DNA of 64,000 bases, taken from the NCBI RefSeq assembly GCF_000828675.1, contig NZ_AP014510.1:1445413-1509412 (forward strand), written 5' to 3'. This document shows, piece after piece, positions 1,449 to 52,359 of the stretch (within the stretch, counting starts at the first letter, position 1; the number at the start of each line of letters is the position of its first letter). The DNA is from Thermotoga profunda AZM34c06. Its GTDB lineage: Bacteria; Thermotogota; Thermotogae; Thermotogales; DSM-5069. The notes under the pieces are model-generated. The model was not told the origin of the DNA. It saw only the letters and a program-made list of their open reading frames with translations, and ran no database searches. The position numbers and the translations under genes were made by a program.

Positions 1449-1464
1449 GAAGGGGGAGTTAGTT

Positions 1465-4741: not shown

Positions 4742-4750
4742 TAGACCACC

Positions 4751-6555: not shown

Positions 6556-6566
6556 AAAGCCATCTC

Positions 6567-8228: not shown

Positions 8229-8243
8229 CCCCCTATACCTCCT

Positions 8244-8669: not shown

Positions 8670-8678
8670 AGGGCATGA

Positions 8679-9017: not shown

Positions 9018-9029
9018 TCTTGTCACCTC

Positions 9030-9587: not shown

Positions 9588-9602
9588 AGTTTCACCTCCG
9601 AA

Positions 9603-30396: not shown

Positions 30397-31737
30397 ATGA
30401 GAGTTCTGAGAAATCTTTTCATCTTTGTTATGTTATTAGCACTTGCGACTGGAATATTCGGGGCTAAGGTTATCGAATTAACGTTTACCTTCTGGGGAAC
30501 TGATCTTGAAGCACAGGTTGTCAACGAAGCTTGTACAAAATTCAATAAATCGCACCCTAATATTAAAGTAGTACCAATGCACATTCCCGCAAACTATATT
30601 GAAAAACTCACGGCTATGATCGCAGGTGGTACACCACCACACATAGGATATTTATACGAGCCAAATGTTTTGGACTGGGCTTCTAAGGGTATTCTTTACG
30701 ATTTAACAGAAGCAATTAAACAGGACACCCTTCTTTCAAACAAACTAACAGAGTTATACTGGAAATACGATCAGGGAAAGAAAATAGCAGGTATCACGGT
30801 TGCCGCAGAATTTATGATCACATACTACAACAAAGATTTGTTTGACAAGGCAAAAGTTCCATATCCACCAACAAAACCAGAGGAATGGACATGGGACAAA
30901 TTTGTTGAGACTGCCAAGAAGTTGACATTTGACAACAAAGGTAGAAGACCTACTGACCCAGGATTTGACCCCGATAATATTGTACAGTATGGAGCAGTTA
31001 TACCATTATGGTGGTGCCCGTTGATACCATTGATTTGGTCCAATGGTGGAGACATCGCAGATGAGACTGGAACAAAACCGATGATAAACTCTCCCGAAAC
31101 TATGGAAGCTCTTCAAAAGATTTATGATCTTATCTATAAAGATCATGCTGCTGCCCCACCAACTGTGTCCGATGCGTTTCCAAGCACAAACATAGCTTTA
31201 CAAACTGGCCAGGTAGCAATGGTGATCGATGGACAATGGTCAATGCAAGAAGCAGGAGAAATGGTTAAAGAAGGGTCACTCAAACTCGGTTTAGCGCCAC
31301 TCCCATATTTCAAGAAGCCTGTTACTGGTGTAATCGGTACTCCCATAGTTATCTTCAAAGATGCCGTGAAAAGTCCTGAAGTCCTTCAAGCAGCTTTGGA
31401 GTTTCATAAGTTCATTCAAGACCCTGAGAATGTTTTACCGCTTATAAGATGCGGTTTGTGGCAACCCACGACTATCGAGTGGTATACGAAAGAAGAATAT
31501 ATCAAAAAATGGATGGATCCAAAAATACATCCATCTGAGTACAAGGCAGCTGTTATTGACTATTATCCTTATGCAAGAAAATACCCAGTGGCATATTTGA
31601 AAAATTCCGCGGAGATCAACACGATTTTTGGTCAGGAAATGACAAGAATCTTCTATGGAAATGAAGATATCCAAAAAGTGTGCAATGAAGCCGCTGAAAA
31701 ATTAAAACCACTACTCGTCGGAAGGTATGATAAGTAA
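30397..31737 (+). CDS. Sugar/glycopeptide ABC substrate-binding protein (tandem copy 1)
   Basis: Exported family 1 solute-binding protein, 446 residues, signal peptide RVLRNLFIFVMLLALATGIFG, mature start VIELTFTFWGTDLEAQVVNE. ATG behind AGGAGGG. Homologous along its whole length to the next gene, which also encodes a binding protein. A 172-bp stretch in the middle is nearly identical between them (see finding). Two binding proteins feeding one permease pair suggests two related ligands. Ligand inferred, from the operon, to be an arabinosylated hydroxyproline compound or arabino-oligosaccharide. Confidence 0.92.
   Translation: MRVLRNLFIFVMLLALATGIFGAKVIELTFTFWGTDLEAQVVNEACTKFNKSHPNIKVVPMHIPANYIEKLTAMIAGGTPPHIGYLYEPNVLDWASKGILYDLTEAIKQDTLLSNKLTELYWKYDQGKKIAGITVAAEFMITYYNKDLFDKAKVPYPPTKPEEWTWDKFVETAKKLTFDNKGRRPTDPGFDPDNIVQYGAVIPLWWCPLIPLIWSNGGDIADETGTKPMINSPETMEALQKIYDLIYKDHAAAPPTVSDAFPSTNIALQTGQVAMVIDGQWSMQEAGEMVKEGSLKLGLAPLPYFKKPVTGVIGTPIVIFKDAVKSPEVLQAALEFHKFIQDPENVLPLIRCGLWQPTTIEWYTKEEYIKKWMDPKIHPSEYKAAVIDYYPYARKYPVAYLKNSAEINTIFGQEMTRIFYGNEDIQKVCNEAAEKLKPLLVGRYDK
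30800..30971 (+). repeat. Gene-conversion tract, copy 1
   Basis: 172 bases identical to 32180-32351 except for one synonymous change (T30912 against C32292). It codes for AAEFMITYYNKDLFDKAKVP and following residues. The flanking coding sequence is clearly diverged. Confidence 0.9.
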
Positions 31738-31785
31738 TCGGTGTTACTATTTATTCCATTTCAAATTGAAAGGTAGGTGGGTAAT

Positions 31786-33129
31786 GTGAAGTTGAGGTTT
31801 GTCATGATAGTTATGTTAATTTTCACGATACTGGTCTCGGCAAAGGTTATTGAATTGAAGTTTGCCTTTTGGGGAGATGAACTCGAGGCAAAAATCGTGA
31901 CGCAAGCCTGTGAAAAATTCAACCAACTTCATCCTAATATCAAAGTCATACCGATGCACATTCCACAGTATTTGGAGAAACTCTCGGCGATGATTGCTTC
32001 TGGTGAACCACCGCACTTGGCATATCTTGTAGAAAGTCGTGCACTTGGATGGGCAGCACAGGGAATTCTAGTAGATCTGAATGAATTACTCCAGAAGGAT
32101 CCAGATCCAATAATTGTGAATAAATTACCTCAGCTGTACTGGAAGTTCGATGGCGGCAAAAAATTAGCAGGTGTGAGTTTTGCCGCAGAATTTATGATCA
32201 CATACTACAACAAAGATTTGTTTGACAAGGCAAAAGTTCCATATCCACCAACAAAACCAGAGGAATGGACATGGGACAAATTTGTTGAGACCGCCAAGAA
32301 GTTGACATTTGACAACAAAGGTAGAAGACCTACTGACCCAGGATTTGACCCAAAGAATATCGTTCAGTATGGTGCAGCAATCGGTGGTGGAGGAACAAGT
32401 CCGTGGGTTTTGTATCCTCTCTTATGGTCTAACGGCGGAGATATAGTGAGTGAAGATGGAAAACAGGTTATGTTAGATTCCCCTGCAACTATTGAAGCTA
32501 TTCAGAAAATATACAATTTGATTTATAAAGATTATGCTGCCATAGCACCAGCTGCAGCAGATGCCTTTCCGAGTCTGAATGTCGCTTTACAAACTGGTCA
32601 AGTCGCCATGGTCCTTGATGGTCAATGGGCGATGCAAGAAGCTGCACAGATAGCCAAAGAAGAAGGTATGAGATTTGGTGTAGCGCCACTTCCATACATG
32701 AAGACTCCTGTCACCGGAGTGGAAGGGGCACCGATTGGTATATTCAAAGATGCTGTCAAAAATGACCCAGAAGTGTTACAAGCCGCGTGGGAGTTTTATA
32801 AATTCATTCAGAACCCAGATCAAGTTGCAGAAGTGGTCAGAAGCGGTTTGTGGCAACCAACTACACTTGACTGGTACACAAAGGAAGAATACATCAATAA
32901 GTGGCTGAATCCACAGGTACATCCTAAAGAATACAAAGATGCAGTTGTGAATTATTACAAGTATGCAAAACCATATCCAAATGCATATTTGAAGAATGTC
33001 GCAGAAATCAATACAATAGTTGTTCAAGAAATGAGCAGAATTTTCTATGGACAAGAAGATATCGCTAAGGTCTGTAAAGAAGCTGCTGAAAAGATTAGAC
33101 CACTCTTGGCCGGAAGGTATGATAAGTAA
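31786..33129 (+). CDS. Sugar/glycopeptide ABC substrate-binding protein (tandem copy 2)
   Basis: Second binding protein of the operon, about 447 residues, signal peptide KLRFVMIVMLIFTILVSA. GTG at 31786 chosen because AGGTGG ends 5 bases before it; GTG at 31777 overlaps that site. Compared with copy 1 it has a short insertion, IGGGGTSPW, in the ligand-cleft region where copy 1 has IPLWWCP, so specificity probably differs. Confidence 0.92.
   Translation: MKLRFVMIVMLIFTILVSAKVIELKFAFWGDELEAKIVTQACEKFNQLHPNIKVIPMHIPQYLEKLSAMIASGEPPHLAYLVESRALGWAAQGILVDLNELLQKDPDPIIVNKLPQLYWKFDGGKKLAGVSFAAEFMITYYNKDLFDKAKVPYPPTKPEEWTWDKFVETAKKLTFDNKGRRPTDPGFDPKNIVQYGAAIGGGGTSPWVLYPLLWSNGGDIVSEDGKQVMLDSPATIEAIQKIYNLIYKDYAAIAPAAADAFPSLNVALQTGQVAMVLDGQWAMQEAAQIAKEEGMRFGVAPLPYMKTPVTGVEGAPIGIFKDAVKNDPEVLQAAWEFYKFIQNPDQVAEVVRSGLWQPTTLDWYTKEEYINKWLNPQVHPKEYKDAVVNYYKYAKPYPNAYLKNVAEINTIVVQEMSRIFYGQEDIAKVCKEAAEKIRPLLAGRYDK
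32180..32351 (+). repeat. Gene-conversion tract, copy 2
   Basis: Partner of 30800-30971, offset 1380 bases, 171 of 172 bases identical. Both ends are sharp. Confidence 0.9.
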
Positions 33130-33145
33130 TCATTTTGTTTTTATT

Positions 33146-33172
33146 CAGAGGGGGATATTCCCCCTCTGTTTT
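33146..33172 (+). terminator. Intra-operon hairpin after binding proteins
   Basis: Perfect 9-bp stem CAGAGGGGG / CCCCCTCTG (33146-33154, 33160-33168), followed by TTTTAT. It lies 16 bases after the second binding-protein stop and 24 bases before the permease start. Probably partial termination or a 3' stabiliser, as downstream genes have no other promoter. Confidence 0.8.
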
Positions 33173-33195
33173 ATATGGAAGGGGTGTGAAGAAAT

Positions 33196-34077
33196 TTGAG
33201 AAAATTTGAGACAAAATGGGGTATTATGCTCGCTTTACCGGGAATTCTTGGATATTTTCTGTGGGTACTTGGACCGACAATTGCTGCGATATTCATGAGC
33301 TTCACAAACTGGTCACTCGCAGGAAAACCTCAATGGATAGGATGGGAAAACTACACAAAACTTTTCAACGATTTCATATTCAGAAAATCACTTTTTGTCA
33401 CTTTTTATTACGCAATTGGGAGTGTAGTAGCCAGTTTGGTTGTCAGCTTTTTCTGGGCATTGTTATTAAATGTGAAGGTTCCAGGGAGATCACTTTTTAG
33501 AACATTTTTCTTTATACCATCGATTACACCATCTGTTGCAGTTGCAATGGTGTGGTTGACTTTGTATCATCCTCAGTTTGGTTTACTAAATTATATTTTC
33601 AAATCGATAGGTCTACCGGCATTGAAATGGATATACGACGAGAAACAAGTGATACCCGCGTTTATTGTAATGAGTACCTGGACTGTGGGTTATACAATAA
33701 CTATTTTTCTTGCAGGTTTACAGGGTATACCAGAATATCTCTATGAAGCGGCTATGCTTGACGGCGCAACATGGTGGCACAGGCTTTGCCATGTCACAAT
33801 CCCCATGATGACACCTACCATATTCTTTAATTTACTCATGGGTATCATAGGTGCATTGCAAGGTGGATTTACGCAAGCGTACATCATGACCAGTGGTGGG
33901 CCAAATTATGCGAGTATGTTTTACACATACTATATCTTTCTCAATGGATTTCAGTATGGAAAGATGGGGTATGCGTGTGCATTGTCGGTGATTATCTTTG
34001 CAATAATAATATGTCTGACCGTTATTATATTCAGAACATCTCGATACTGGGTTTATTACGAAGCTCTGAGAAAATGA
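33196..34077 (+). CDS. ABC transporter permease, MalF type (eight-gene operon)
   Basis: Six-helix sugar-transport permease, 293 residues, with EAA loop IPEYLYEAAMLDGATWWHRL. TTG start at 33196 behind GAAGGGGTG. Paired with the next gene. No ATPase in the operon. Confidence 0.93.
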   Translation: MRKFETKWGIMLALPGILGYFLWVLGPTIAAIFMSFTNWSLAGKPQWIGWENYTKLFNDFIFRKSLFVTFYYAIGSVVASLVVSFFWALLLNVKVPGRSLFRTFFFIPSITPSVAVAMVWLTLYHPQFGLLNYIFKSIGLPALKWIYDEKQVIPAFIVMSTWTVGYTITIFLAGLQGIPEYLYEAAMLDGATWWHRLCHVTIPMMTPTIFFNLLMGIIGALQGGFTQAYIMTSGGPNYASMFYTYYIFLNGFQYGKMGYACALSVIIFAIIICLTVIIFRTSRYWVYYEALRK

Positions 34078-34095
34078 ATCTTGGGGGTGTATGAA

Positions 34096-34932
34096 GTGGC
34101 AAGAAAAACAAACCTTCTCACAGGTAAGGCTGTTACTTTCATCATATTGGTACTTGGTTCAGTAGTATATTTATTGCCTTTCATTTGGCTTATCAGGAGT
34201 TCCTTGATGTCTTCTGGTCAAATCTTCAGAATGCCACTTGAGTGGATCCCTAAACCGTTCAGATGGCAGAACTATCCGCAAGCCTTGACAGCAATGCCAT
34301 TCTTCAGATATCTGCTCAACACATTGATCGTGTTGTTCTTTGTAGAAGCTGGTACTTTGTTGACAGCTCCAATGGCAGCCTTTGCGTTTTCCAGATTACG
34401 TTGGCGTGGTAGAGATTTGTTATTTTTTGTGATTTTGACTTCTTTAATGATACCTTATGCAGTTACATTAATTCCAACGTTTATCCTGTGGAAATCACTT
34501 GGTTTTGTGAATACTTATCTACCCTTAACAGTCCCTGCTTGGTTTGGTGGTAGCGCCTATTACATCTTTATGTTAAGACAGTTCTTTGCGGGATTACCAA
34601 TAGAACTCGATGAAGCAGCTTACCTTGATGGTGCAACACCCTGGCAAGTTCTGTGGAAAATAGTTGTACCACTTTCAAAACCGGCATTAATAACTGTAGC
34701 TGTTTTCACTTTCTTAGGAGTCTGGGGAGATTTAATGGGACCGATCATCTATTTAAATGACGCAAACAAATACACATTGGCAGTTGGTTTGACAATATTC
34801 CGTGGTGCTTACAGTACAAAGTGGAATCTGTTAATGGCAGCTTCTTCAGTGATAATGATTCCGCCTATCCTGATATATTTCATCGGACAAAATTATTTCC
34901 AGCGCGGTATAGTGATGACTGGAATGAAATAA
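34096..34932 (+). CDS. ABC transporter permease, MalG type (eight-gene operon)
   Basis: Second permease, about 278 residues, EAA loop LPIELDEAAYLDGATPWQVLWK and terminal QRGIVMTGMK. GTG at 34096 chosen because GGGGGTG lies 6 bases upstream; the TTG at 34081 overlaps that site. Directly followed by GH127. Confidence 0.93.
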   Translation: MARKTNLLTGKAVTFIILVLGSVVYLLPFIWLIRSSLMSSGQIFRMPLEWIPKPFRWQNYPQALTAMPFFRYLLNTLIVLFFVEAGTLLTAPMAAFAFSRLRWRGRDLLFFVILTSLMIPYAVTLIPTFILWKSLGFVNTYLPLTVPAWFGGSAYYIFMLRQFFAGLPIELDEAAYLDGATPWQVLWKIVVPLSKPALITVAVFTFLGVWGDLMGPIIYLNDANKYTLAVGLTIFRGAYSTKWNLLMAASSVIMIPPILIYFIGQNYFQRGIVMTGMK

Positions 34933-34954
34933 TTGTGAGGGAGGGAGAGTAAAT

Positions 34955-36847
34955 ATGCAAAATAAAGTACCTGTTGACACACGGAAAAGTCCGTATGCAG
35001 TTTTGAGGGGTGTAGAGATATCTGATGTTCAGATATCTGGCTTTCTTGGTGGTTATCTTGAAAGAGCAGCTAATGTAACTCTGCCGAGTATGTATGAAAT
35101 GCTCGAAAAAACAGGAAGGATAGACAATTTGAGATTTGCATCTGGTAAAAAGAAAGGTACTTTCCAGGGGTTTCGCTTCAACGACACTGATGTACACAAA
35201 TGGGCTGAAGCAGTTTCGTATCTTTTTGCAACAAGAAAAGATGTGAGACTTGAGAAAGTCCTTGATACAGCTATCGAGGAAATCAGAGATGCTCAGGATG
35301 ATGATGGTTATGTAGATAGCTATTATCCCAAAGATAAAAGAAACGAAAGATGGACAGAACTTGGCTGGTCTCATGAAATGTACTGCGCAGGCCATTTGAT
35401 CCAAGCTGCTGTTGCACACAAAAGAGTCACAGGCAATGATTCACTATTCAAGATAGCCAAAAAATTTGCAAACCACATAGACAGCCTCTTCGGACCAAAT
35501 AAGAGACCAGAGCTCGATGGCCATCCAGAGGTTGAGATGGCTCTTGTTGAATTGTACAGGGAAACAGATGATCTCAGATATCTGAAGCTTGCAGATTATT
35601 TTGTACGCGCGCGTGGAAGAGGTTATGCAAGTAGCTCAAAGTATCCTGGAATAACACCAGAATATTTTGTTGATCATAAACCTTTTATTGAACTTGAAGA
35701 ATTGGTCGGTCATGCTGTTAGAATGTTGTATTTATGCTGTGGAGCCGCCGATGTTTATCTTGAAACCGGTGCAAAAGATCTCTGGCAAGCTCTTGAAAGA
35801 TTGTGGAATGATCTTGTTCAAAAGAAAATGCATATCACTGGCGGATGTGGGTCCCGATCTGAGTGGGAAGCCTTCGGCAAAGAATATGAATTGCCGAATA
35901 AGAGAGCATACACAGAAACCTGCGCGGCGATTGCAAGTTTTATGTGGAATTATAGGATGTTTCTGGCAACTGGTGATGGTAAATACGTAGACACCATGGA
36001 ACAGGTACTTTACAACGGACTACTTTCGGGTATTTCTTTGGATGGAAAGCATTATTTCTACGATAACCCATTGGAGAACGATGGTACTCATAGGAGAAAA
36101 GAATGGTTTGAATGTGCTTGTTGTCCTCCGAATATCGCAAGACTCATTACTTCGTTACCTGGGTATATGTATTCGGTGTCAAAAGATGAATCAAAAATCT
36201 TTGTCAATTTTTACGAAAGGAATAAAGCAAATATCAGTACGCGCTTTGGAAACATAAAAATGATAATGGAAACAGATTATCCATGGTCTGAGGAAGTGAA
36301 CATACATTTTGATAAGTGTGAAGTCACAAAAGAAATATCAATCTGCTTGAGGATACCTGGCTGGGCTGAAGATTTCTCGATTAAACTGAACGGCGAAACG
36401 ATAAATGCTAAGCCCAAGAACGGTTTTATTGAACTGAAAAAGGCTTGGGGAAAAGGAGACTCTATAGATTTATTCTTCTCAATGCCTGTTGAAATGATTC
36501 GAAGTCATCCATTTGTGGAAGAAAACAGGGGCAGAGCCGCTGTCAAGAGAGGACCTGTTGTTTATTGTGCAGAAGGTGTAGATAACAATTTCGAGGTCCG
36601 TGCCTTGAGATTGAATCATGAGAAACCAGACTTACATGCCGAGTACGGGAATATTACCAATTTGGGCAAGATCGTCTCAATTTCCGGAAAAGGGTTTGCC
36701 TGTGATATGGATGACTGGAAGGGGAAACTCTATGTACCGATGAGAAAGTTGAAAGTCGATAAACCCGTTGAATTCAAACTCGTTCCATATTGTTTGTGGG
36801 CTAACAGAGATCCAAAGCCAATGGTTGTTTGGATAAGATTGATATAG
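34955..36847 (+). CDS. GH127 beta-L-arabinofuranosidase
   Basis: Hydrolyses terminal beta-L-arabinofuranosides, in the founding member (HypBA1 of Bifidobacterium longum) those attached to hydroxyproline of plant extensin. 630 residues, whole DUF1680/GH127 length. The zinc-thiolate active site is visible: E321 and C323 in TETCAA, and the Cys pair C389-C390 in FECACCPPNIAR, matching the Glu-x-Cys and Cys-Cys ligands of the family, in which the first Cys of the pair is the nucleophile. No signal peptide, so it acts in the cytoplasm on imported material. ATG behind GAGGGAGAG. It sits between the permeases and an Xaa-Pro peptidase. Confidence 0.93.
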   Translation: MQNKVPVDTRKSPYAVLRGVEISDVQISGFLGGYLERAANVTLPSMYEMLEKTGRIDNLRFASGKKKGTFQGFRFNDTDVHKWAEAVSYLFATRKDVRLEKVLDTAIEEIRDAQDDDGYVDSYYPKDKRNERWTELGWSHEMYCAGHLIQAAVAHKRVTGNDSLFKIAKKFANHIDSLFGPNKRPELDGHPEVEMALVELYRETDDLRYLKLADYFVRARGRGYASSSKYPGITPEYFVDHKPFIELEELVGHAVRMLYLCCGAADVYLETGAKDLWQALERLWNDLVQKKMHITGGCGSRSEWEAFGKEYELPNKRAYTETCAAIASFMWNYRMFLATGDGKYVDTMEQVLYNGLLSGISLDGKHYFYDNPLENDGTHRRKEWFECACCPPNIARLITSLPGYMYSVSKDESKIFVNFYERNKANISTRFGNIKMIMETDYPWSEEVNIHFDKCEVTKEISICLRIPGWAEDFSIKLNGETINAKPKNGFIELKKAWGKGDSIDLFFSMPVEMIRSHPFVEENRGRAAVKRGPVVYCAEGVDNNFEVRALRLNHEKPDLHAEYGNITNLGKIVSISGKGFACDMDDWKGKLYVPMRKLKVDKPVEFKLVPYCLWANRDPKPMVVWIRLI

Positions 36848-36862
36848 AAGGGAGAAACATGT

Positions 36863-37948
36863 ATGAACAGAGCACAAAAATTGTTAGATTCTCTTAGATC
36901 TTCTGTATGTAAAGATATCGACACAGTGATGATTTGGAATTATGAGAGCTCGTCAACTGCTAATACCTTTTATTTATCTGGTTTTAGAGGTTCGTGTAGT
37001 ATCTTGATAATTCGCGATGATTGTAATTACATAATCACTGATTCAAGATATTTTGAACAAGCGGAACAGGAAAGTGATTTTGTTCTAATTAAACATACCG
37101 AGGGTAAACTGATCAAAACTGTCGCGGATTTTTTGGATAAATTATCCGCAAAAGTGATAGGTTTTGAGGCTGAAAGACTTGATTGTAAGACTTATAATGA
37201 ATTAAACGAGAAATTGAACGTTAGATTCGTACCAATTGATGGAATGCTCTATAGTATGCGCTCAATAAAAACCGAGGAAGAAATAGAAAAGATACATGCT
37301 GCAAGTAGGATAGCTGAAAAAGCCTTCTTAGAGACACTCAATTTTATAAAAGAGGGCGTATCGGAAATTGAAATATGCGCTGAACTGGAGTACAGAATCA
37401 AGAAACTCGGTGCTCAGGTTGGATTTGAGACTCTTGTTGGTTCTGGAGCAAGTACTTCAAAACCACATGTAAAACCAGCAGAAAAAAAACTGAGAAATGG
37501 CGAATTGATTCTATTTGATTTCGGCGCTCGAGTAGATGGTTATTGTTGTGATATAACAAGAATGGTATTTTTGGGTAAACCTTCCAAAGAAATAATAGAG
37601 TGTTATAATCTTGTGAATGAATCACTCCAAAAGGCTACAAATGAAGGTAAAGCTGGAGTAATTGCGAAGCATATCGATCAGGTAGCAAGACAGGTTATTC
37701 TTCAAAGTAAGTATGCCCAATACTGTTTCAAATATGGCTTGGGACATGGAATAGGACTTGAAGTTCATGAATCACCGAGAATGGGACCACTGTTTGATGA
37801 ACCATTACCATCAGGAGCTGTGATCACTGTGGAACCAGGTATTTATATACCAGGAAGATTTGGTATAAGGATTGAAAATGATGTAATTGTTCGCGATAGT
37901 TGTTTTGAAAAAATAACAGCTTTGAGCGAGGATCTCATCAGTCTCTGA
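36863..37948 (+). CDS. M24-family Xaa-Pro peptidase, operon-specific paralogue
   Basis: Cytoplasmic metallopeptidase of the aminopeptidase P/prolidase type, 361 residues. Metal ligands are intact: FDFGARVDGYCCDITR (two Asp), GLGHGIGLEVHES (His), TVEPGIY and RIENDV (two Glu). Clearly related along its length to the housekeeping copy at 9603-10679. ATG behind AAGGGAG, 15 bp after GH127. A second prolyl peptidase inside a sugar operon is unusual. Between GH127 and a hydroxyproline dehydratase it most simply cleaves Xaa-Hyp or Hyp-Xaa bonds. Substrate preference for Hyp is inferred, not visible in the sequence. Confidence 0.92.
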   Translation: MNRAQKLLDSLRSSVCKDIDTVMIWNYESSSTANTFYLSGFRGSCSILIIRDDCNYIITDSRYFEQAEQESDFVLIKHTEGKLIKTVADFLDKLSAKVIGFEAERLDCKTYNELNEKLNVRFVPIDGMLYSMRSIKTEEEIEKIHAASRIAEKAFLETLNFIKEGVSEIEICAELEYRIKKLGAQVGFETLVGSGASTSKPHVKPAEKKLRNGELILFDFGARVDGYCCDITRMVFLGKPSKEIIECYNLVNESLQKATNEGKAGVIAKHIDQVARQVILQSKYAQYCFKYGLGHGIGLEVHESPRMGPLFDEPLPSGAVITVEPGIYIPGRFGIRIENDVIVRDSCFEKITALSEDLISL

Positions 37949-37973
37949 AAATTTTTCATAGGAGGTGATCATT

Positions 37974-40385
37974 TTGGAAACAAAGATTTATGAAGAAATC
38001 GAGCAAAGACGTTTGAGTATAAAACCTATGAATGATCGAGTCAAAAAACTGAGAGAAGAGAGTATAAAATCCAAAGAAAAGATATCTGTTGAGCGCGCAA
38101 AATTGATAACAGATTTCTACAAAACCAAAGCACCTAAGAACGTTTCCTATCCAGTGCTGCGCGCAATGGCTTTCAAATATCTCATGGAAAATTGCAGCCT
38201 TCCAGTTGAAGATGGACAGTTAATAGTTGGCATCAGAGGGACAGGACCAAAAGAAGTTCCCACTTATCCAGAAATATGCGTTCATACCTTGGAAGATCTC
38301 AAGACACTGGCAACAAGAAAAAATATGCCGTTTCAGGTCGACAATCAGACACGTAAGGTATACGAAGAAGAAATAATACCCTTCTGGCAAGGACAGGCGA
38401 TGAGAGATATTATTTTTGAAAACATGACTCAGGAATGGAAAGATGCATATGAAGCTGGCATTTGGACGGAGTTCATGGAGCAACGGGCACCAGGTCACAC
38501 TTCTGGAGGTGGCAAAATCTTCAAGGTAGGAGTTCTTGATATAAAAAGGAAGATAAAAGAACAAATTGAAAAACTGAACATTTCTGACCCAGATTATCTT
38601 GAAAAGATAGAAGAACTAAAAGCCATGGATATAGCCGCTGATGGAATATTAATATATGCTAAGCGATATTCACAAAAACTCAAAGAACTTGCTGAGAATG
38701 AAGTGAATAAAGGAAGGAAAGAAGAACTCTTAGAAATGTCTAAGATCTGTGAAAAGGTCCCTGCACATGCTCCGGAAAATTTCTGGGAAGCACTTCAACA
38801 TTATTGGTTCATTCATGTTGGAATAACATATGAAACGAACCCATGGGATTCCTTCACACCCGGAAGGTTGGATCAGCATATATACAAACTTTTTGAAAGA
38901 GATATGAATTCAGGTAGATTGACGCGCGAAAGAGCAAAAGAGCTTCTGCAAGCTTTCTGGCTTAAATTCAACAACCAGCCTTCAGTGCCAAAGGTAAAGA
39001 TAACAGCGGAAGAAAGTTTTACATACAACGATTTTTCTAAAATCAACATTGGCGGTCTGAAAACAGATGGCTCAAATGCAGTGAATGAGTTGTCATATCT
39101 AATACTTGAAGTGCTCAATGAAATGAGAACATTACAACCAAACACAGCAGTTTTACTCAGCGACAAAAATCCAGATGATTTTCTTTTAAAGGCTTTAGAA
39201 GTTCTCTCACCTGGTTTTGGTGAGCCACCTTTGTTTAATTACGATAGAATCATTGTTAAAATGTTGCGGCAAGGGAAAACACTTGAAGACGCAAGAGAAT
39301 CAGGTGTTAGTGGTTGTGTTGAAACAGGAGCTCTTGGAAAAGAAGCGTATATTCTTACTGGATATTTGAATTTGCCTAAGATATTTGAAATAACACTCAA
39401 TGGTGGAGTAGATCCAAGAACTGGTAAACGCATTGGAGTTGAGACTAAAGAGCCGAGTAGTTTTGAAGAACTCTGGGAATCTTTCATGACTCAACTGAAG
39501 TATTTTTTAGATATTAAAATGAAAGGCAACGATATCATTGAGGCTTTGTATGCGAAATACTTACCTGTTCCATTTCTATCTTTGTGGATTGAGGATTGTG
39601 TAGAAAATGCAAAGGATTACAACGCTGGTGGAACTCGCTATAATACTCAGTACATCCAGTTGGTTGGACTTGGTACAGTTGTGGATTGTCTTGCGTCTAT
39701 GAAGTGGAATATTTTTGAAAAAAGACTATTCAGCTACTCAGAGTTGATGAAAGCCCTGAGACAGAACTTTGAAGGTTATGAATACATGAGGCAGGTATTT
39801 TTGAATAAAACTCCAAAATTTGGGAATGACGATGATTACGTTGATAACATTGCCAAAAAGTTTGTTGATCAAATTGTTTATATGGTTGAATCTTATCCTG
39901 CTTCGCCCATCAGAAAGGCATCTAAAAGATGTTACTTTTTACCAACGACAGTTCATGTTTATTTTGGAAGTGTCACAGGTGCCACACCAGATGGCAGAAA
40001 AGCTGGTACACCGGTTTCAGAGGGTATCTCACCGGTTCAAGGCGTCGACAAAAAAGGTGTAGCTGCTGTTTTCAGATCTGTTTGTAAGTGTGATTGGGAT
40101 AAAACTGGTGGGGCTTTGTTGAATCAGAAACTCACGCCTGATTTAGTCAAGAAGAAAGATAATTTGGAAAAACTCGGTAAATTAATAAGGACATATTTCA
40201 GAATGGGTGGACATCACGTGCAATTCAATGTGGTCTCTTCGGAATTATTAAAAGAAGCACAAAAGCGACCAAATGATTTTGAAGATTTGATGGTAAGGGT
40301 TGCAGGGTACAGTGATTATTTTGTGAGCCTTCCGAAAGGATTACAAGATGAGATAATCGCCAGAACAGAACAAGGAGAATTTTGA
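37974..40385 (+). CDS. hypD: Glycyl radical enzyme, probable trans-4-hydroxy-L-proline dehydratase
   Basis: Oxygen-sensitive radical enzyme, 803 residues. Radical Gly778 lies in RVAGYSDYF; the thiyl radical Cys448 and catalytic Glu450 are in SGCVETG. This G-C-V-E-T-G context followed by GKEAYILTGYLNLPK, together with FMEQRAPGHT (His175), WDSFTPGRLDQH, ESFTYNDF and LPTTVH, matches the substrate-site blocks I recall for Clostridioides difficile HypD rather than pyruvate formate-lyase (Cys-Cys pair) or glycerol and choline dehydratases. HypD removes water from trans-4-hydroxyproline, giving pyrroline-5-carboxylate. TTG start at 37974 is set by AGGAGGTG six bases upstream. Activase follows after one base. 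No proC (P5C reductase) in the window. Confidence 0.85.
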   Translation: METKIYEEIEQRRLSIKPMNDRVKKLREESIKSKEKISVERAKLITDFYKTKAPKNVSYPVLRAMAFKYLMENCSLPVEDGQLIVGIRGTGPKEVPTYPEICVHTLEDLKTLATRKNMPFQVDNQTRKVYEEEIIPFWQGQAMRDIIFENMTQEWKDAYEAGIWTEFMEQRAPGHTSGGGKIFKVGVLDIKRKIKEQIEKLNISDPDYLEKIEELKAMDIAADGILIYAKRYSQKLKELAENEVNKGRKEELLEMSKICEKVPAHAPENFWEALQHYWFIHVGITYETNPWDSFTPGRLDQHIYKLFERDMNSGRLTRERAKELLQAFWLKFNNQPSVPKVKITAEESFTYNDFSKINIGGLKTDGSNAVNELSYLILEVLNEMRTLQPNTAVLLSDKNPDDFLLKALEVLSPGFGEPPLFNYDRIIVKMLRQGKTLEDARESGVSGCVETGALGKEAYILTGYLNLPKIFEITLNGGVDPRTGKRIGVETKEPSSFEELWESFMTQLKYFLDIKMKGNDIIEALYAKYLPVPFLSLWIEDCVENAKDYNAGGTRYNTQYIQLVGLGTVVDCLASMKWNIFEKRLFSYSELMKALRQNFEGYEYMRQVFLNKTPKFGNDDDYVDNIAKKFVDQIVYMVESYPASPIRKASKRCYFLPTTVHVYFGSVTGATPDGRKAGTPVSEGISPVQGVDKKGVAAVFRSVCKCDWDKTGGALLNQKLTPDLVKKKDNLEKLGKLIRTYFRMGGHHVQFNVVSSELLKEAQKRPNDFEDLMVRVAGYSDYFVSLPKGLQDEIIARTEQGEF

Positions 40386-40386
40386 T

Positions 40387-41283
40387 ATGCATGGATTGAT
40401 ATTTAACATACAGAGATTCGCCATTCATGATGGTCCTGGTATAAGAACAACGATTTTCATGAAGGGTTGTCCTTTATCTTGCTGGTGGTGTCACAATCCA
40501 GAAGGTATATCCCCATTTGCTGAGTTGATGTGGACAAGATATAAATGCATTCATTGCCAATCTTGTGTTACAACTTGTCCAAATAAGGCTTTGAACTTTG
40601 AAGAGACTAAACTCATATTGAATAAAGATCAATGTTCATTTTGTGGTAGATGTGCACAAATTTGTCCGACAGATGCTTTGAAATTGATAGGAAAATACAT
40701 GGAACCCGGAGATATCCTGGAAGAACTTGAAAAAGATACTATGTACTTTGATCAATCTGGTGGCGGCGTCACCTTTTCTGGTGGCGAGCCGCTTTTTCAG
40801 ATCGATTTTTTACTTGAAGTTCTTCCCAAAATCAAATCACGTCATATTCATGTAACAATTGACACCTCTGGTTACGCGAACACAGAAGACTTAGAAAAGA
40901 TTTTGCCATACGTTGATCTGTTTCTTTACGATATAAAAATCATTGATAAGACAAAACACGTACAAAATACAGGTGTTGAGAATGACATTATAAAGAAAAA
41001 TCTGAGATTTCTAATCTCAAAGAAAAAAGAGGTCATAATACGTGTGCCAGTAATACCCAAAGTGAATGATTCACAGCAGGATATTGAAGAACTCACAAAA
41101 TTTGTGAAATCTTTGGATGGCGATCTGGAAGTAGACTTACTGCCATATCACGATGTTTCAGAAAAATATCAAGCACTGTGGAGAAAAACAAAAAATGCCT
41201 CCACAGATGATCTTGCCCAGATCGTTCATAAAATAAAAACCGAACTACAATCGCAAGGATTATATGTGAAAATAGGTGGATAG
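40387..41283 (+). CDS. hypE: Glycyl radical enzyme activase (radical SAM, two extra [4Fe-4S] clusters)
   Basis: Generates the glycyl radical on the preceding enzyme using SAM. 298 residues: radical-SAM motif C28-x3-C32-x2-C35 in KGCPLSCWWCHNPEG, a ferredoxin-like insert with two four-Cys motifs (CIHCQSCVTTC and CSFCGRCAQIC), then FSGGEPL and VTIDTSGY of the TIM barrel. The insert is typical for activases of dehydratase-type glycyl radical enzymes. It follows the enzyme gene by a single base. Last gene of the operon; no terminator is evident. Confidence 0.93.
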   Translation: MHGLIFNIQRFAIHDGPGIRTTIFMKGCPLSCWWCHNPEGISPFAELMWTRYKCIHCQSCVTTCPNKALNFEETKLILNKDQCSFCGRCAQICPTDALKLIGKYMEPGDILEELEKDTMYFDQSGGGVTFSGGEPLFQIDFLLEVLPKIKSRHIHVTIDTSGYANTEDLEKILPYVDLFLYDIKIIDKTKHVQNTGVENDIIKKNLRFLISKKKEVIIRVPVIPKVNDSQQDIEELTKFVKSLDGDLEVDLLPYHDVSEKYQALWRKTKNASTDDLAQIVHKIKTELQSQGLYVKIGG

Positions 41284-46521: not shown

Positions 46522-47493
46522 GTGGACAATGTTTTACTTCGCTTTGAAGGTGTGCATAAAACTTTTCGCCTGGGACATTTTTTTTCAAGAAATAAGATAC
46601 ACGCTGTTTGGGATGCAAATTTCAAAATAGAAAATGATCCTATTGTTTTCACTTTGGTCGGAGAGAGCGGTAGTGGGAAGACCACAATAGCAAATCTTTT
46701 GTTGAGGACTATTAAGCCAACGAAGGGTACAATCTGGTTCATGGGTAAGAACATAGAGAATTATCCCAAATCAGAATTCATAAAACAGATTCAACCTGTT
46801 TTTCAAGATCCCTTCGAGACGTTCAATCCTTTAAAAAAACTGGAGACTTATTTTCAGATAATGTTGAAAAAGATGATAAATTCCAAAAATAAAGTCAAAG
46901 GTCTTTCCTTGTTTGAGAAATCTTTGAATGCAGTTGGATTGACTATTGAGGATATTAAGGGAAGATATCCACATGAACTCTCTGGTGGACAGTTACAAAG
47001 ATTGTCCATAGCCAGGTCTCTTCTTGTAAATCCAAAGATTCTTGTAGCCGATGAGCCTGTTTCAATGCTGGACGTTTCTTTAAGAATATCGATCTTGAAT
47101 CTATTCAGAAAATTACGCGATGAGAAACTTCTCCATGTTTTCTATATAACTCACGACCTTGCTACGGCGTATTACATAAGTGACTACATCGCAGTTATTC
47201 TAAAAGGAAACATTGTGGAGGCAGGACCAGCAGAGAAGCTCCTAATGACTCCGTTGCATCCTTATACACAATTACTGAAAGAATCAGTGCCAGATTTGCT
47301 GGATAAAGAGAAAAAAACATATAAATTGGTTAATCGAAGTGTTGAATCTCCACGAGAATATTCAGAACAACTCTGTAAGTTCATTCTTAGATGTCCTCAA
47401 AAGAAAGATATATGTGACAAAAAAGCCCCACCTAACTTTACCGTCGACAACACGGTAGTCAGGTGTTGGCTTTATCAAAAGGGAGGGGTGTAG
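46522..47493 (+). CDS. Opp-type oligosaccharide/peptide ABC transporter ATP-binding protein (OppF position)
   Basis: ATPase of a family 5 importer, 323 residues. Walker A VGESGSGKTTIA, Q-loop QPVFQDPFE, signature LSGGQLQRLSIARSL, Walker B ILVADEPVSMLD, and the C-terminal Opp/Dpp extension with cysteines (CKFILRCPQKKDIC) that can bind an FeS or metal centre. GTG at 46522 behind GGGGGG. It is unusually the first gene, with its OppD-type partner last. Confidence 0.93.
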   Translation: MDNVLLRFEGVHKTFRLGHFFSRNKIHAVWDANFKIENDPIVFTLVGESGSGKTTIANLLLRTIKPTKGTIWFMGKNIENYPKSEFIKQIQPVFQDPFETFNPLKKLETYFQIMLKKMINSKNKVKGLSLFEKSLNAVGLTIEDIKGRYPHELSGGQLQRLSIARSLLVNPKILVADEPVSMLDVSLRISILNLFRKLRDEKLLHVFYITHDLATAYYISDYIAVILKGNIVEAGPAEKLLMTPLHPYTQLLKESVPDLLDKEKKTYKLVNRSVESPREYSEQLCKFILRCPQKKDICDKKAPPNFTVDNTVVRCWLYQKGGV

Positions 47494-47494
47494 T

Positions 47495-49408
47495 GTGAGG
47501 TACATCAAGTGGGTAGTTGTGGTTGTTCTGGCAATCGCGGGGATAATCAGTTTTGCACAAGAAGTTCTTCCTGGAATTCCTAGAAATGAGGTTATCATCA
47601 TTGAAGATCCATCGGGTCGTTCTCTGAATCCTACAAGATTCAATCTCTGGGGAGGCGGCGTTTCAAGCTGGTCAACAGGTATCCAGCAGTTGTGTTTAGG
47701 AGCACTATGGTACATAGATCCAGATGCTGGAATTGAAGGAAACACATGGATCAATCTTTTGGCAGCCGACGCACCTGTGTACAACGATAACAAAACAGAG
47801 ATGACTGTGAAATTGAGAAAAGGGATTTATTGGAGCGATGGTGTACCGTTCACTGCAGACGATTTAATATTCACAGTCGAAACACTGAAAAATCATCCCG
47901 AAATGACTTGGGGAGCATATATGCAGGTCAATGTCCAAGAAGTGAAAAAGATCGATGACTACACAGTCTTATTCAAGCTCGTAAAGTCAAATGGAAGATT
48001 TCACACAATTTTTACTGTGAGATGGTCTGCGTGCTATATCATGCCCAAACACATCTTTGAAAAAGTCCAAGATCCTGTCGCCTTTGATTTCTACCCACCG
48101 GTAGGAACTGGTCCATATGTTTTGAAATCATACGATCCGAATGGTTACTGGTTCCTGTGGGAATTGAGACAAGATTGGGAAAGGTCAGATCTTGGTGTGG
48201 TATTTGGAAAGAAACCTGGTCCAAAATACGTTCTGTACAAAGGAATAGCTTCTCCTGAGAAAAAGGTTATGGATCAGATGGCTCATGAACTCGATATAAT
48301 CCATGATTTACCACCGGAAGGAGCGATAACCCTTCATCAAAACAATCCATATTGCGTCACTTGGTTTGATGGTTGGCCATGGGCACATCCAGACCCAACA
48401 CTACCATCTTTGATTATGAATCATGAGCAGTTCCCATACAATTTGAAAGAAGTCCGCTGGGCTCTCACACTTGCCATTGATATTGTTCAAGTCGTATTGC
48501 AATCATACAACGGATGCGCAACTATATCACCAATCCATGTTCCACCAACAGGTAAGGATCCAGAATGGTACTTCGACAAGATAGAACCATGGTTGAAAGA
48601 TTTCACAATTAAGGTAGGATCTGAGACATTCAAACCATATGATCCGACTATACCTACGAAGATAGCCGATGCCGTTAAGTATGCCTATGGCTATAAAGTT
48701 CCAGAAGATCCCTCAGAAATCAGGAAAATGGTTGGATATGGATGGTGGAAATATTCACCTGATGTAGCTGAAAAACTTTTAAAGAGCGTAGGGTTCAAAA
48801 AAGAAAAGGGAAAGTGGTTATTACCTGATGGTAAACCTTGGAAGATCTCTATACTCTGTGAGGCTGCGACGAGATCTGTTATGACAAGAGCAGCAGCAGC
48901 AGTTGCTGAACAATGGCGCAAATTTGGCATAGATGCTCAAATAGAAGCCGTAGAACCATCCATGTTGTGGACAAGGATGAATTATGGAGAAGACAAAGAT
49001 ACCATATATTGGGCATGGTGTATCGAAACATGGGGTGGTCATCCTGATTTATTCTGGTTCTTAGAGTCTTGGCATTCCGATTATTATAGACCAACTGGTC
49101 AGACTGTCGTAGCCAAGAACCCCATGAGATACAAGAGTGATAAAATTGACAAAATTATAGATTCGTTGAGACAAACCGACTTCTTTAAAGACACAGATAA
49201 AATGATCGATCTGGGTTTGGAATATGTGAAGACTTGTGTAGAAGATATGCCCATAATTCCTGTCTTCTCTTATAACGTATTCACAGTTTGTGACGGATAT
49301 TACTGGACTGGTTATCCAACAGCAGAGGATCCTTACACAGATCCAGTACCAAACTGGGGAAATACGAGATTCATGTTTATAAAATTGCAGCCAACGGGAA
49401 GGAAATAG
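47495..49408 (+). CDS. Family 5 (OppA-type) substrate-binding protein
   Basis: Exported binding protein, 637 residues, signal peptide YIKWVVVVVLAIAGIISFA. It has the family-5 core LRKGIYWSDGVPFTADDLIF and GTGPYVLKSYD. In Thermotogales many OppA-type proteins bind oligosaccharides rather than peptides. The AraR promoter and the downstream GH51 arabinofuranosidase argue for arabino- or arabinoxylo-oligosaccharides. GTG start at 47495 behind GGGAGGGGTG. Confidence 0.92.
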   Translation: MRYIKWVVVVVLAIAGIISFAQEVLPGIPRNEVIIIEDPSGRSLNPTRFNLWGGGVSSWSTGIQQLCLGALWYIDPDAGIEGNTWINLLAADAPVYNDNKTEMTVKLRKGIYWSDGVPFTADDLIFTVETLKNHPEMTWGAYMQVNVQEVKKIDDYTVLFKLVKSNGRFHTIFTVRWSACYIMPKHIFEKVQDPVAFDFYPPVGTGPYVLKSYDPNGYWFLWELRQDWERSDLGVVFGKKPGPKYVLYKGIASPEKKVMDQMAHELDIIHDLPPEGAITLHQNNPYCVTWFDGWPWAHPDPTLPSLIMNHEQFPYNLKEVRWALTLAIDIVQVVLQSYNGCATISPIHVPPTGKDPEWYFDKIEPWLKDFTIKVGSETFKPYDPTIPTKIADAVKYAYGYKVPEDPSEIRKMVGYGWWKYSPDVAEKLLKSVGFKKEKGKWLLPDGKPWKISILCEAATRSVMTRAAAAVAEQWRKFGIDAQIEAVEPSMLWTRMNYGEDKDTIYWAWCIETWGGHPDLFWFLESWHSDYYRPTGQTVVAKNPMRYKSDKIDKIIDSLRQTDFFKDTDKMIDLGLEYVKTCVEDMPIIPVFSYNVFTVCDGYYWTGYPTAEDPYTDPVPNWGNTRFMFIKLQPTGRK

Positions 49409-49458
49409 TTACAGGTTTTAATTAGATAACTTGTTAGAAGTCCACGGGAGGAGATCGT

Positions 49459-50487
49459 GTGAAAGATTTTTTGAAATTCATACTGAAATATTTCATAACA
49501 AGATTATCAATAAGTTTGCTTGTGATCTTCATAGGTGTTTCGATTATCTTCTTGATCCCACGACTCGTTCCAGGTGCAAATCCTGCAGAAATGGCAATCA
49601 GGCGATTGCAAATGGCAGGTGCTTATCTACCAGCAGATAGTATCGAAAAAATGAGACAAGCCTTACTGAAACTTTATGGTTTGGAAGGCTCCATCTTCAG
49701 GCAATATATAACATTCTGGAGAGAATTATTAAAAGGAAATTTAGGGCCTTCATTTGCCTCTTTTCCAACACCTGTTATAACGCTTATAGCTCGATCCCTC
49801 CCGTGGACTGTTGGTTTACTTGCTTTGACAGCGTTGATATCTTGGGTTTGCGGAACGATTCTTGGAGGGATTGCCGGTTACAGGAATAAGGGATTGTGGG
49901 TAAGAATTCTTGAAATTGTTTCAAATGCCGTGAGACCTGTCCCATATTATATCCTTGCTTTACTTTTGCTCATACTGTTTGCCTATGTACTACATTGGTT
50001 CCCAACTGGTGGTGCATACCAAATCGGATTGACGCCGACTTTGAATTGGGCTTTTGTCAAGAGCGTCATAAGATACGGTTTTTTACCAGCACTCTCGTTG
50101 ATAATAATCGGTATAGGTGCATGGTTTTTGAATATGCGTAACCTTGTATCGAATATCACAGGTGAGTACTTTGTAACTTTTGCACATCAAATGGGACTGA
50201 AAGACTCAATTATACTTAAAAGTTATGTCATAAGACTTGCAATGCCCGCACAATTAACTGGTCTTGCTTTACAACTTGGGTTTATCTTCAATGGCACGAT
50301 AATAACAGAAATCGTATTCAATTATCCCGGTTTAGGGACTTTAATTTATACAGCTATAATGCAATCTGACTACAATTTGGTCATGGGAACAACACTATTT
50401 TCAATAGTGGCTGTGGCATTTGCAACTTTATTTGTGGATCTTTTGCTGCCTTTTATAGATCCCAGGATTCAATATGTATCTGGATAA
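49459..50487 (+). CDS. Opp-type ABC transporter permease (OppB position)
   Basis: Membrane subunit, 342 residues, with an N-terminal helix (LSISLLVIFIGVSIIFLIP) and a transport domain ending in the family pattern FNYPGLGTLIYTAI. GTG at 49459 behind GGGAGGAG. Fifty bp after the binding protein. Confidence 0.93.
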   Translation: MKDFLKFILKYFITRLSISLLVIFIGVSIIFLIPRLVPGANPAEMAIRRLQMAGAYLPADSIEKMRQALLKLYGLEGSIFRQYITFWRELLKGNLGPSFASFPTPVITLIARSLPWTVGLLALTALISWVCGTILGGIAGYRNKGLWVRILEIVSNAVRPVPYYILALLLLILFAYVLHWFPTGGAYQIGLTPTLNWAFVKSVIRYGFLPALSLIIIGIGAWFLNMRNLVSNITGEYFVTFAHQMGLKDSIILKSYVIRLAMPAQLTGLALQLGFIFNGTIITEIVFNYPGLGTLIYTAIMQSDYNLVMGTTLFSIVAVAFATLFVDLLLPFIDPRIQYVSG

Positions 50488-50521
50488 AAACACATGATTA
50501 ACGGGAAGGAGAACAAGAGAG

Positions 50522-51397
50522 ATGAATTCATTCATCGGTGTTGTCAAGAAGATGTTCAAAAATGATAGGAGATTTAAATTTGGTATAATCATTTTCGCAT
50601 TTTTGCTGATTTTTGTGGTGTTATCGTTTTTTTCACCATATGATCCCCGCTCAAGCTATTATGCTCCCATCTGCCGTCCACCTTCTTTGAAACATCTTTT
50701 TGGTACTAACGGCAGAGGTCAAGACTTATTTTGGTTACTCACCTTTGCCTTGGGGAATTCATTGGTATTTGGTCTGGAGGTTGCCCTTTTATCCCGTGTA
50801 CTGGCGATAATCATAGGTGTTATAGCTGGATATAAAGGCGGAAATGTGGTTGACAACATATTGATGTTGTTGTGTGACACATTTGTTGTTTTGCCAATTT
50901 TTCCAATATTGGTTTTTTTGCGCTTAATTGCACGCAGTATGAGCTTTTCTACTTTGGCAATTGTTTTAGCATTGTTTGGCTGGCCATGGGATGCAAGGCT
51001 CATAAGATCTCAAGTATTGAGTTTAAGAGAGCAAAAATACACGGTTACTGCGGTGTTTTCTGGTAGGAGCATTTTTGGTCTGATTTTCTCGGAATATTTT
51101 CCTCACATACTTCCAATCATACTTGCAACTACAATTAACAACATGCTTTGGTCTTTGGGTTTAGAAATAACCCTATCTATCTTAGGATTAGCTCCTTTAG
51201 ATATTCCAACGATGGGGACTGTAACTTACTGGGCTATACAACAACAGGCGATGGTTACTGGTGCATGGTGGTGGATACTATTTCCAATCGTTTTTATAGT
51301 TTTGCTATTCACCTCTTTGTACCTTCTTTTCACCAGTATAACGTCTTTCATCAATCCACGTTTGAGGGCGGTTGGTGCCGGGGAGGTCAGCCGATGA
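50522..51397 (+). CDS. Opp-type ABC transporter permease (OppC position)
   Basis: Membrane subunit, 291 residues, with one N-terminal helix, the OppC-type segment HLFGTNGRGQDLFW, and the EAA loop SLREQKYTVTAVFSGRSIFG. ATG at 50522 behind GGAAGGAG. Overlaps the next gene by 4 bp. Confidence 0.93.
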   Translation: MNSFIGVVKKMFKNDRRFKFGIIIFAFLLIFVVLSFFSPYDPRSSYYAPICRPPSLKHLFGTNGRGQDLFWLLTFALGNSLVFGLEVALLSRVLAIIIGVIAGYKGGNVVDNILMLLCDTFVVLPIFPILVFLRLIARSMSFSTLAIVLALFGWPWDARLIRSQVLSLREQKYTVTAVFSGRSIFGLIFSEYFPHILPIILATTINNMLWSLGLEITLSILGLAPLDIPTMGTVTYWAIQQQAMVTGAWWWILFPIVFIVLLFTSLYLLFTSITSFINPRLRAVGAGEVSR

Positions 51398-52359
51398 CTC
51401 GTGTACAGGTAAATGACTTAAAAGCATATTATGTAATCGAGCAAAATGGATCCCTTAAAAATATCAAAGCTGTGGATGGTGTGTCTTTGAACATAGAAGA
51501 ATATGACTTTCTGGCTATAGTAGGTGAATCTGGATGCGGTAAAACGACTCTCGCTAAGGTGTTATATGGCGCGTTGGATCCGGCGTTATCGATAGTTGCC
51601 GGGAATGTGCGTTATAACTATGAGGATTGCGAATATGAGATTTCTCCCACTCGTAATACTCTTCCAAAAATGTGGTGGAAAAAGATTTCTTACATTCCTC
51701 AGGGCTCGCTGAGTGCTTTAAATCCTATAAGAAAAGTGGGTCAAATCTTTCGTGATCTTTTATCATCGCATGATATACCATTTGAAATCGAGGAAATAGA
51801 AAAACATATAGGGTTAGTTAATTTATCTGGTCAAGTTCTTCAAATGTATCCTTTTGAACTTTCGGGTGGTATGAAGCAGAGAGTTGTAATGGCATTGGCA
51901 ACTTTTTTGAGCCCTCAGATAATAATCGCCGATGAACCTACATCTGCTCTTGATGTTGTCACTCAACGCGACATTCTCGGACTTCTCAGTTTTCTTCATA
52001 AATCAAAACAAATCAGTTTTGTGTTTATTACTCATGATATATCTTTGATACCAGGTTTGGCAAATGTTGTGGCTGTAATGTATTGCGGATGTATTGTGGA
52101 ATATGGTCTTGTGGATGAAGTATTTTCTAACCCTCTGCATCCGTATACGAAATTTCTGCTTTCTTCAATTCCAAGGATAGGCGACAAGAGCGAAAAAAAA
52201 CCTATACCTGGAGCAGTAGTCAGTTTGGTCAATCCTCCATCAGGTTGTAGATTCCACTCAAGATGTCCCTACAAAGGCGACTCGTGTGAGAATTCAAAGC
52301 CCAACATGATCAAAGTTGGTTCTGGTAGACATGAAGTTGCCTGCTGGTTGTACAAGTAA
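51394..52359 (+). CDS. Opp-type ABC transporter ATP-binding protein (OppD position)
   Basis: Second ATPase, 321 residues from ATG 51394 (ATGA overlap, GGGAGG upstream). Walker A VGESGCGKTTLA, signature LSGGMKQRVVMALAT, Walker B IIIADEPTSALD, and the C-terminal Opp extension CRFHSRCPYKGDSC. The longer open frame from 51148 runs inside the permease gene in another frame and is rejected. Confidence 0.93.
   Translation: MTRVQVNDLKAYYVIEQNGSLKNIKAVDGVSLNIEEYDFLAIVGESGCGKTTLAKVLYGALDPALSIVAGNVRYNYEDCEYEISPTRNTLPKMWWKKISYIPQGSLSALNPIRKVGQIFRDLLSSHDIPFEIEEIEKHIGLVNLSGQVLQMYPFELSGGMKQRVVMALATFLSPQIIIADEPTSALDVVTQRDILGLLSFLHKSKQISFVFITHDISLIPGLANVVAVMYCGCIVEYGLVDEVFSNPLHPYTKFLLSSIPRIGDKSEKKPIPGAVVSLVNPPSGCRFHSRCPYKGDSCENSKPNMIKVGSGRHEVACWLYK

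Follow-up and report, generated by a model that had tools for sequence, protein, structure and literature searches.

A glycyl radical hydroxyproline dehydratase (HypD) encoded in one operon with a GH127 beta-L-arabinofuranosidase and an M24 peptidase: a candidate pathway for arabinosylated hydroxyproline

The locus and its genes

The gene under study is found within a row of eight co-directional genes at 30397-41283 of the window (the whole stretch of 64,000 nucleotides that was analysed), which encode two sugar-binding proteins, two permeases, a GH127 protein, an M24 peptidase, HypD and its activase, in this order. The intergenic gaps are 39, 66, 3, 22, 15, 25 and 1 bp, and 408 bp follow the activase gene. 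The features of the operon and its surroundings are as follows.

24764-25837, + strand: GntR/LacI-type regulator with 41-42% identity to the one encoded directly 3' of the HypD and activase genes in loci L102 and L103
25851-26498, + strand: AraD-like L-ribulose-5-phosphate 4-epimerase (NF005123, 312 bits, cut-off 251)
30397-31737, + strand: sugar-binding protein 1 (PF01547), 68% identical to sugar-binding protein 2
31777-33129, + strand: sugar-binding protein 2 (PF01547); 6rjy is the second-best PDB match (E 2e-21)
33146-33168, + strand: terminator- or attenuator-like hairpin between sugar-binding protein 2 and permease 1, a 10-pair stem followed by TTTTATATGG (consensus match only)
33196-34077, + strand: ABC sugar permease 1 (PF00528)
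34081-34932, + strand: ABC sugar permease 2 (PF00528)
34955-36847, + strand: GH127 beta-L-arabinofuranosidase (PF07944, PF20736 and PF20737 over cut-off)
36863-37948, + strand: M24 metallopeptidase of the Xaa-Pro dipeptidase/aminopeptidase P type (PF00557, 200 bits; best PDB match 2zsg, an aminopeptidase P)
37974-40385, + strand: HypD-type glycyl radical enzyme (predicted Cys448 thiyl, Glu450 of the CXE motif, Gly778 radical site)
40387-41283, + strand: radical-SAM activase of HypD, with CPLSCWWC at residue 28 and two 4Fe-4S ferredoxin motifs
46522-52359, + strand: Opp-type ABC transporter (two ATPases, SBP_bac_5, two permeases), with an Opp homologue next to HypD in the archaeal locus L035
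52397-53839, + strand: GH51-type alpha-L-arabinofuranosidase (PF06964; NF051901, 380 bits, below cut-off)
53965-55389, + strand: L-fucose/arabinose-type isomerase (PF02952)
55408-56928, + strand: FGGY sugar kinase (PF00370, PF02782)

The frame at 37974-40385 is open for 803 residues, and the antisense strand over the same positions holds short, stop-interrupted frames only. The TTG at 37974 is preferred as the start because a strong Shine-Dalgarno-like AGGAGGTGAT is placed immediately 5' of it; a longer version starting with the GTG at 37965 was ruled out since this codon would fall within AGGAGGTGAT and thereby overlap the ribosome-binding site.

The two adjacent sugar-binding proteins (30397-33129) share one permease pair, and the distant PDB relatives of the second include an arabino-oligosaccharide-binding protein. 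The strong hairpin with its T-run between the second of them and the first permease may act as an attenuator that raises the level of the binding proteins over that of the permeases.

In the GH127 protein the catalytic, middle and C-terminal domains are all present, and its PDB matches include 4qjy (E 7e-137) and, third-ranked, HypBA1 (3wkw, E 1e-103). The motifs ETC (321-323, Glu-x-Cys) and CACC (387-390, Cys-Cys) are intact; by motif, as in HypBA1, they are taken to form the zinc-bound cysteine nucleophile site. No signal peptide is visible by eye, and this is the sole GH127 protein of the genome. The M24 peptidase has a second copy in the window, at 9603-10679 on the minus strand, with 47% identity to it.

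The region as a whole constitutes an arabinose/hemicellulose island comprising AraD, GH51, GH10, the isomerase and the kinase. The Opp-type transporter, which is nearest to the HypD-activase pair in locus L101, shares 32% identity in its binding protein and 47% in its ATPase with its counterpart in L035.

Identity of the glycyl radical enzyme

A sequence-only reading of this DNA had proposed a HypD-type enzyme from its motifs, all of which (APGHT, WDSFTPGRLDQH, ESFTYNDF, SGCVETG, GKEAYILTGY and LPTTVH) were found in the frame, and the assignment is borne out, as is its start codon at 37974. PFL-like and glycine radical domains were detected with Pfam, and the NCBIfam equivalog for HypD, NF043068, was passed by a narrow margin (1123.5 bits versus a cut-off of 1100), the second-best family reaching 630 bits. 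The top PDB match is HypD of C. difficile (6vxc, E 5e-274, 915 bits, 51% identity over 777 positions), with weaker matches to glycerol dehydratase (516 bits), choline lyase (468) and HplG (377). A fold comparison with the AlphaFold model (mean pLDDT 83.8, low at 344-348 and 657-690) again gave 6vxc as the best hit, with a TM score of 0.93 and 51% identity. The closest characterised homologue is thus HypD by sequence as well as by fold; a closest homologue with another substrate, which the sequence-only reading had named as a refutation, was not found.

The active site was inspected by aligning some 90 homologues and HypD of C. difficile to the window protein; the catalytic and Hyp-pocket residues were those listed for the C. 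difficile enzyme (PMC7077986). Twelve substrate-contacting residues of C. difficile HypD (Phe152, Arg156, His160, Trp277, Asp278, Lys326, Ser334, Asp339, Phe340, Glu436, Tyr450 and Thr645) were considered together with Cys434 and Gly765; all 14 are identical in the window protein, and they are unchanged also in every aligned homologue covering them. A difference in the substrate-binding residues, which the earlier reading had named as a refutation, was therefore not observed, and the residue pairs that it had given (Cys448 for Cys434, Gly778 for Gly765) are confirmed by the alignment. In the numbering of the window protein the catalytic residues C448, E450 and G778 are all present, and the identical pocket residues are F167, R171, H175, W291, D292, K340, S348, D353, F354, Y464 and T658. 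Glycerol dehydratase keeps the Cys, Glu and Gly only and differs at all 11 pocket positions.

On the basis of scores, residues and fold, identities as a glycerol, choline, propanediol or isethionate lyase or as HplG were ruled out. The NCBIfam, PDB, residue and fold evidence together make it almost certain that the gene encodes a HypD, with the activity being a predicted one, and by all sequence tests the protein is an ordinary member of this family.

The activase was correctly placed at 40387 by the earlier reading. Its gene starts 1 bp 3' of HypD, and the protein has the radical-SAM CxxxCxxC motif along with the two ferredoxin motifs. The best NCBIfam model is that of the HypD activase (NF043069, 375.6 bits, under the cut-off of 425), and the more general family TIGR02494 scores over its cut-off.

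Relatives of the enzyme

A scan of species genomes yielded 80 HypD loci. Fifty-two sequences, including the window HypD, form one fully supported clade that leaves out the HypDs of C. difficile and of the Asgard archaea, and this clade was also recovered in a smaller mixture-model tree. The labels within it include Thermotogota, Thermococcales, Methanodesulfokora, Terraquivivens, Bipolaricaulota, Acetomicrobium, Thermosediminibacteraceae and Desulfofundulus. Thermophiles account for many of the names, but a bog bin, Halobacteroidaceae bins and Thermoplasmata bins are included as well, so that "thermophile clade" is used here as a label and not as a proven trait. For the window itself the term rests on kin, namely tree neighbours from the Thermotogota and records with mostly thermophilic names. 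A HypD from a thermophile, which the sequence-only reading had regarded as new, is not unique, since this clade comprises 50 or more sequences from both Archaea and Bacteria. To our knowledge, none of its HypDs has been characterised.

The clade is separated from C. difficile HypD by a long branch, and the cut-off of NF043068 cuts through it, the HypD of L035 scoring 1089. Among the Thermotogota the distribution is patchy, with a HypD over cut-off in 11 of 103 genomes.

Proline racemase-family proteins are found near HypD in L004, L011, L023 and L053, and OCD/mu-crystallin-family proteins in L004, L026, L028, L062, L076 and L080 (both at the Pfam level); M24 peptidases and oligopeptide transporters likewise occur near the HypDs of relatives. 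No protein reached the cut-off of an NCBIfam equivalog for Hyp epimerase, T3LHyp dehydratase or Pyr2C reductase. The neighbour families would agree with a role in hydroxyproline or proline metabolism, which falls short of proof.

Association of GH127 with HypD

Five Thermotogota genomes carry a HypD of the thermophile clade, and four of the five have a GH127 gene in the same gene row. Three of these are the source genome and two relatives of the same genus with the same block. The fourth (G035, locus L103) belongs to another family (f10) and has the order GH51-GH127-M24-HypD-activase-GntR regulator. Its HypD adjoins Acetomicrobium in the tree, its GH127 falls among those of its own family, and the M24 peptidase is of a different, larger subfamily (593 aa). 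L102, from a further Thermotogota relative, contains GH51, M24, HypD and the activase without GH127. An Atribacteria-labelled bin (L003) shows permease-GH127-M24-HypD-activase as in the window, its GH127 containing a stretch of N; since it clusters with the window in the two trees, it is not counted as independent. In the archaeal L035, GH127 is located about 6.6 kb from HypD and is divergent from an Opp importer running into the HypD and activase genes.

The HypDs and the GH127s of these three lineages fall into different clades. A single clade was rejected by AU tests both for the window-type HypDs with L102/L103 (p 6.7e-5) and for the window-type HypDs with L035 (p 2e-103), the groups having been picked on gene content after the first tree had been seen. 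A single origin of the GH127-linked HypDs was rejected by these tests, and, as judged from the sequences, the layout arose separately in three or more lineages.

The phylum set around G129, with 227 genomes, served as a control. Thirty-five of them combine a HypD over cut-off with a full GH127, and the two are never within 20 kb of each other in these 35, in an intersection made by hand in which contig fragmentation could hide some neighbouring pairs. G126 carries both genes about 14.5 kb apart, and in G127 they are on different contigs. Most genomes with a thermophile-clade HypD have no GH127 at all, which is why we regard the link as a speciality of some lineages and not as a property of the enzyme.

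A proposed pathway and its alternatives

The operon probably encodes a pathway for arabinosylated hydroxyproline that comprises uptake, removal of arabinose, release of Hyp, its dehydration to 1-pyrroline-5-carboxylate (P5C) and reduction to proline. The ABC importer with its two binding proteins and two permeases would bring in beta-arabinosylated Hyp or Hyp glycopeptides, possibly with the participation of the downstream Opp-type importer. In the cytoplasm, GH127 would strip beta-L-arabinofuranose from Hyp, and the M24 peptidase would liberate Hyp from Xaa-Hyp peptides; these two genes likely provide HypD with a specific source of substrate, a link that the sequence-only reading had missed. 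The adjacent activase is predicted to install the radical on Gly778, upon which the Cys448 thiyl radical of HypD would dehydrate trans-4-hydroxy-L-proline to (S)-1-pyrroline-5-carboxylate. This would be the final step of the operon itself, with P5C being reduced to proline, at the expense of reductant, by a ProC encoded elsewhere, and the arabinose could be processed by the flanking isomerase, kinase and AraD.

A P5C reductase gene (ProC) is indeed present at C1:1151104, about 330 kb from the operon. Neither a proline racemase nor a PutA-type proline dehydrogenase was found in the source genome, which fits a scheme in which proline takes up reductant and is either the end product or a building block. 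A Stickland-type route via D-proline was considered unlikely, since the genome has no detectable racemase; PF09338 (glycine/proline reductase subunit) had no match in the source genome nor in any control genome. Read from sequence are the enzyme families, the apparently intact active sites, the operon layout, the repeated GH127-HypD association and the presence of ProC, while the substrates of the importer, the GH127 and the peptidase as well as the flow through the pathway are what we infer.

There is a smaller yet considerable chance that HypD uses free Hyp or Hyp from any peptide (collagen-like or general protein) and that GH127 is part of a neighbouring arabinose/pectin island, in which case the promoter would be common and the substrate would not. 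GH127 enzymes can also act on beta-arabinobiose and pectic beta-arabinofuranose, which makes a purely sugar-related role possible for this GH127, and the whole region can be described as an arabinose/hemicellulose island. General peptide-derived Hyp would fit as well because most HypDs of the clade are found without GH127 and near peptide ABC transporters, M24 peptidases, members of the proline racemase/Hyp epimerase family and OCD-family reductases. Three separately assembled GH127-HypD neighbourhoods (two of them with M24), the tight spacing of 15-25 bp in the window operon and the absence of co-localisation from all 35 genomes of the control set speak against this reading.

That the HypD fold has drifted to another substrate within this clade, e.g. 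to another hydroxyproline isomer or N-methylated Hyp, seems quite unlikely. The long branch towards C. difficile HypD and the closeness of the score to the cut-off, with one clade member below it, would allow for such a drift, and the PDB contains glycyl radical enzymes for N-methyl-4-hydroxyproline (8iof, 8id1). However, the 14 active-site residues are constant in every full-length homologue examined, HplG and the N-methyl-Hyp dehydratases are only 29-30% identical to the window protein, and the gene neighbours of the relatives come from families of Hyp and Pro metabolism. Finally, a relic acquired by transfer and now unexpressed or non-functional, as the patchy occurrence in Thermotogota might suggest, is highly improbable given the open frames, the intact active sites and an operon order that has been kept in three genomes of the same genus (84-88% HypD identity).

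Returning to the arabinosyl-Hyp pathway, its layout suggests an oxygen-free route for the consumption of plant cell-wall glycoproteins. We lean slightly towards an even wider reading, namely a dedicated anaerobic operon for the arabinosyl-Hyp of extensin that was independently assembled at least three times in Bacteria and Archaea of hot environments and by which the cell would use the imino acid as well as the sugar.

Comparison with known systems

Earlier work on HypD dealt with a gut and clostridial enzyme and with Hyp of the collagen type; for the C. difficile enzyme a kcat of 45 per s is reported (PMC7077986). The window protein resembles C. difficile HypD in fold, sequence identity, all catalytic and Hyp-pocket residues and the adjacent radical-SAM activase, but it belongs to another deep clade and to a thermophilic host, and its partners are GH127 and M24 instead of a P5C reductase, which is included in the HypD operons of gut Clostridiales. 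HplG and the N-methyl-hydroxyproline dehydratases (PDB 7vua, 8iof, 8id1) are likewise glycyl radical enzymes for hydroxyproline-type substrates, although they are far weaker matches than HypD.

HypBA1, a GH127 family member, works inside the cell in the B. longum pathway for extensin Hyp-arabinosides, its gene following those for a binding protein and two permeases (PMC7263609), and related members of the clan act on Araf-beta-Hyp (PMC10850190). The window operon shares with the HypBA1/HypBA2/HypAA system a binding protein, two permeases and a putatively intracellular GH127 in one cluster. Whereas the pathway in Bifidobacterium takes the arabinose (PMC7263609, PMC10850190), the window operon adds a peptidase and HypD, so that Hyp itself could be used. 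An extracellular GH121 beta-L-arabinobiosidase is present in B. longum, and none was identified near the window operon.

In the hyperthermophile T. litoralis, a proline/hydroxyproline cluster contains the racemase/epimerase TlProR, for which action on hydroxyproline has been shown; the accessible part of this account mentions no glycyl radical enzyme (PMC4364671). L004, a Thermococcales bin, has OCD-family, Pro_racemase-family and sodium symporter genes in a row with a HypD of the window clade and its activase (532-7980). This row resembles the T. litoralis cluster, as far as the latter is described there, and no GH127 was found in the genome of L004 (G104).

No description of the combination of GH127, M24 and HypD was found in the open-licence literature, and an earlier report may exist elsewhere; in the accessible part of the same literature no account of a thermophilic HypD or of an archaeal glycyl radical Hyp enzyme was found. 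If the proposed pathway holds true, the operon would show what becomes of hydroxyproline after the deglycosylation of extensin in some anaerobes, and the use of plant glycans and of amino acids would be tied together within one transcription unit. For work on the radical mechanism, the clade of thermophiles and Archaea is a source of candidate heat-stable enzymes, and its cultured organisms make this reading of the operon testable.

Further observations on the relatives

In Asgard-type genomes (e.g. L057-L081), a HypD over cut-off is present in 91 of the 227 genomes of the archaeal phylum set that includes Lokiarchaeota, and anaerobic use of Hyp may be widespread among these archaea of sediments. 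L035 is labelled Crenarchaeota and is found in the same phylum set as the Lokiarchaeota genome. The HypD regions of L032 and L033 are nearly identical in bins labelled Aigarchaeota and "bacterium", which is probably due to a binning error.

An FAD-oxidoreductase-like protein (cluster 7) has homologues 4-9 kb from HypD in L013, L018, L025, L026, L028, L041 and L045, which are accompanied by small ferredoxin-like proteins in L026, L028, L041 and L045; the set possibly represents a proline or Hyp dehydrogenase complex. Hydantoinase/oxoprolinase (HyuA) homologues are found near HypD in L032 (a HyuAB-like pair at 5968-9801) and in L017, suggesting another fate of the ring product in these organisms.
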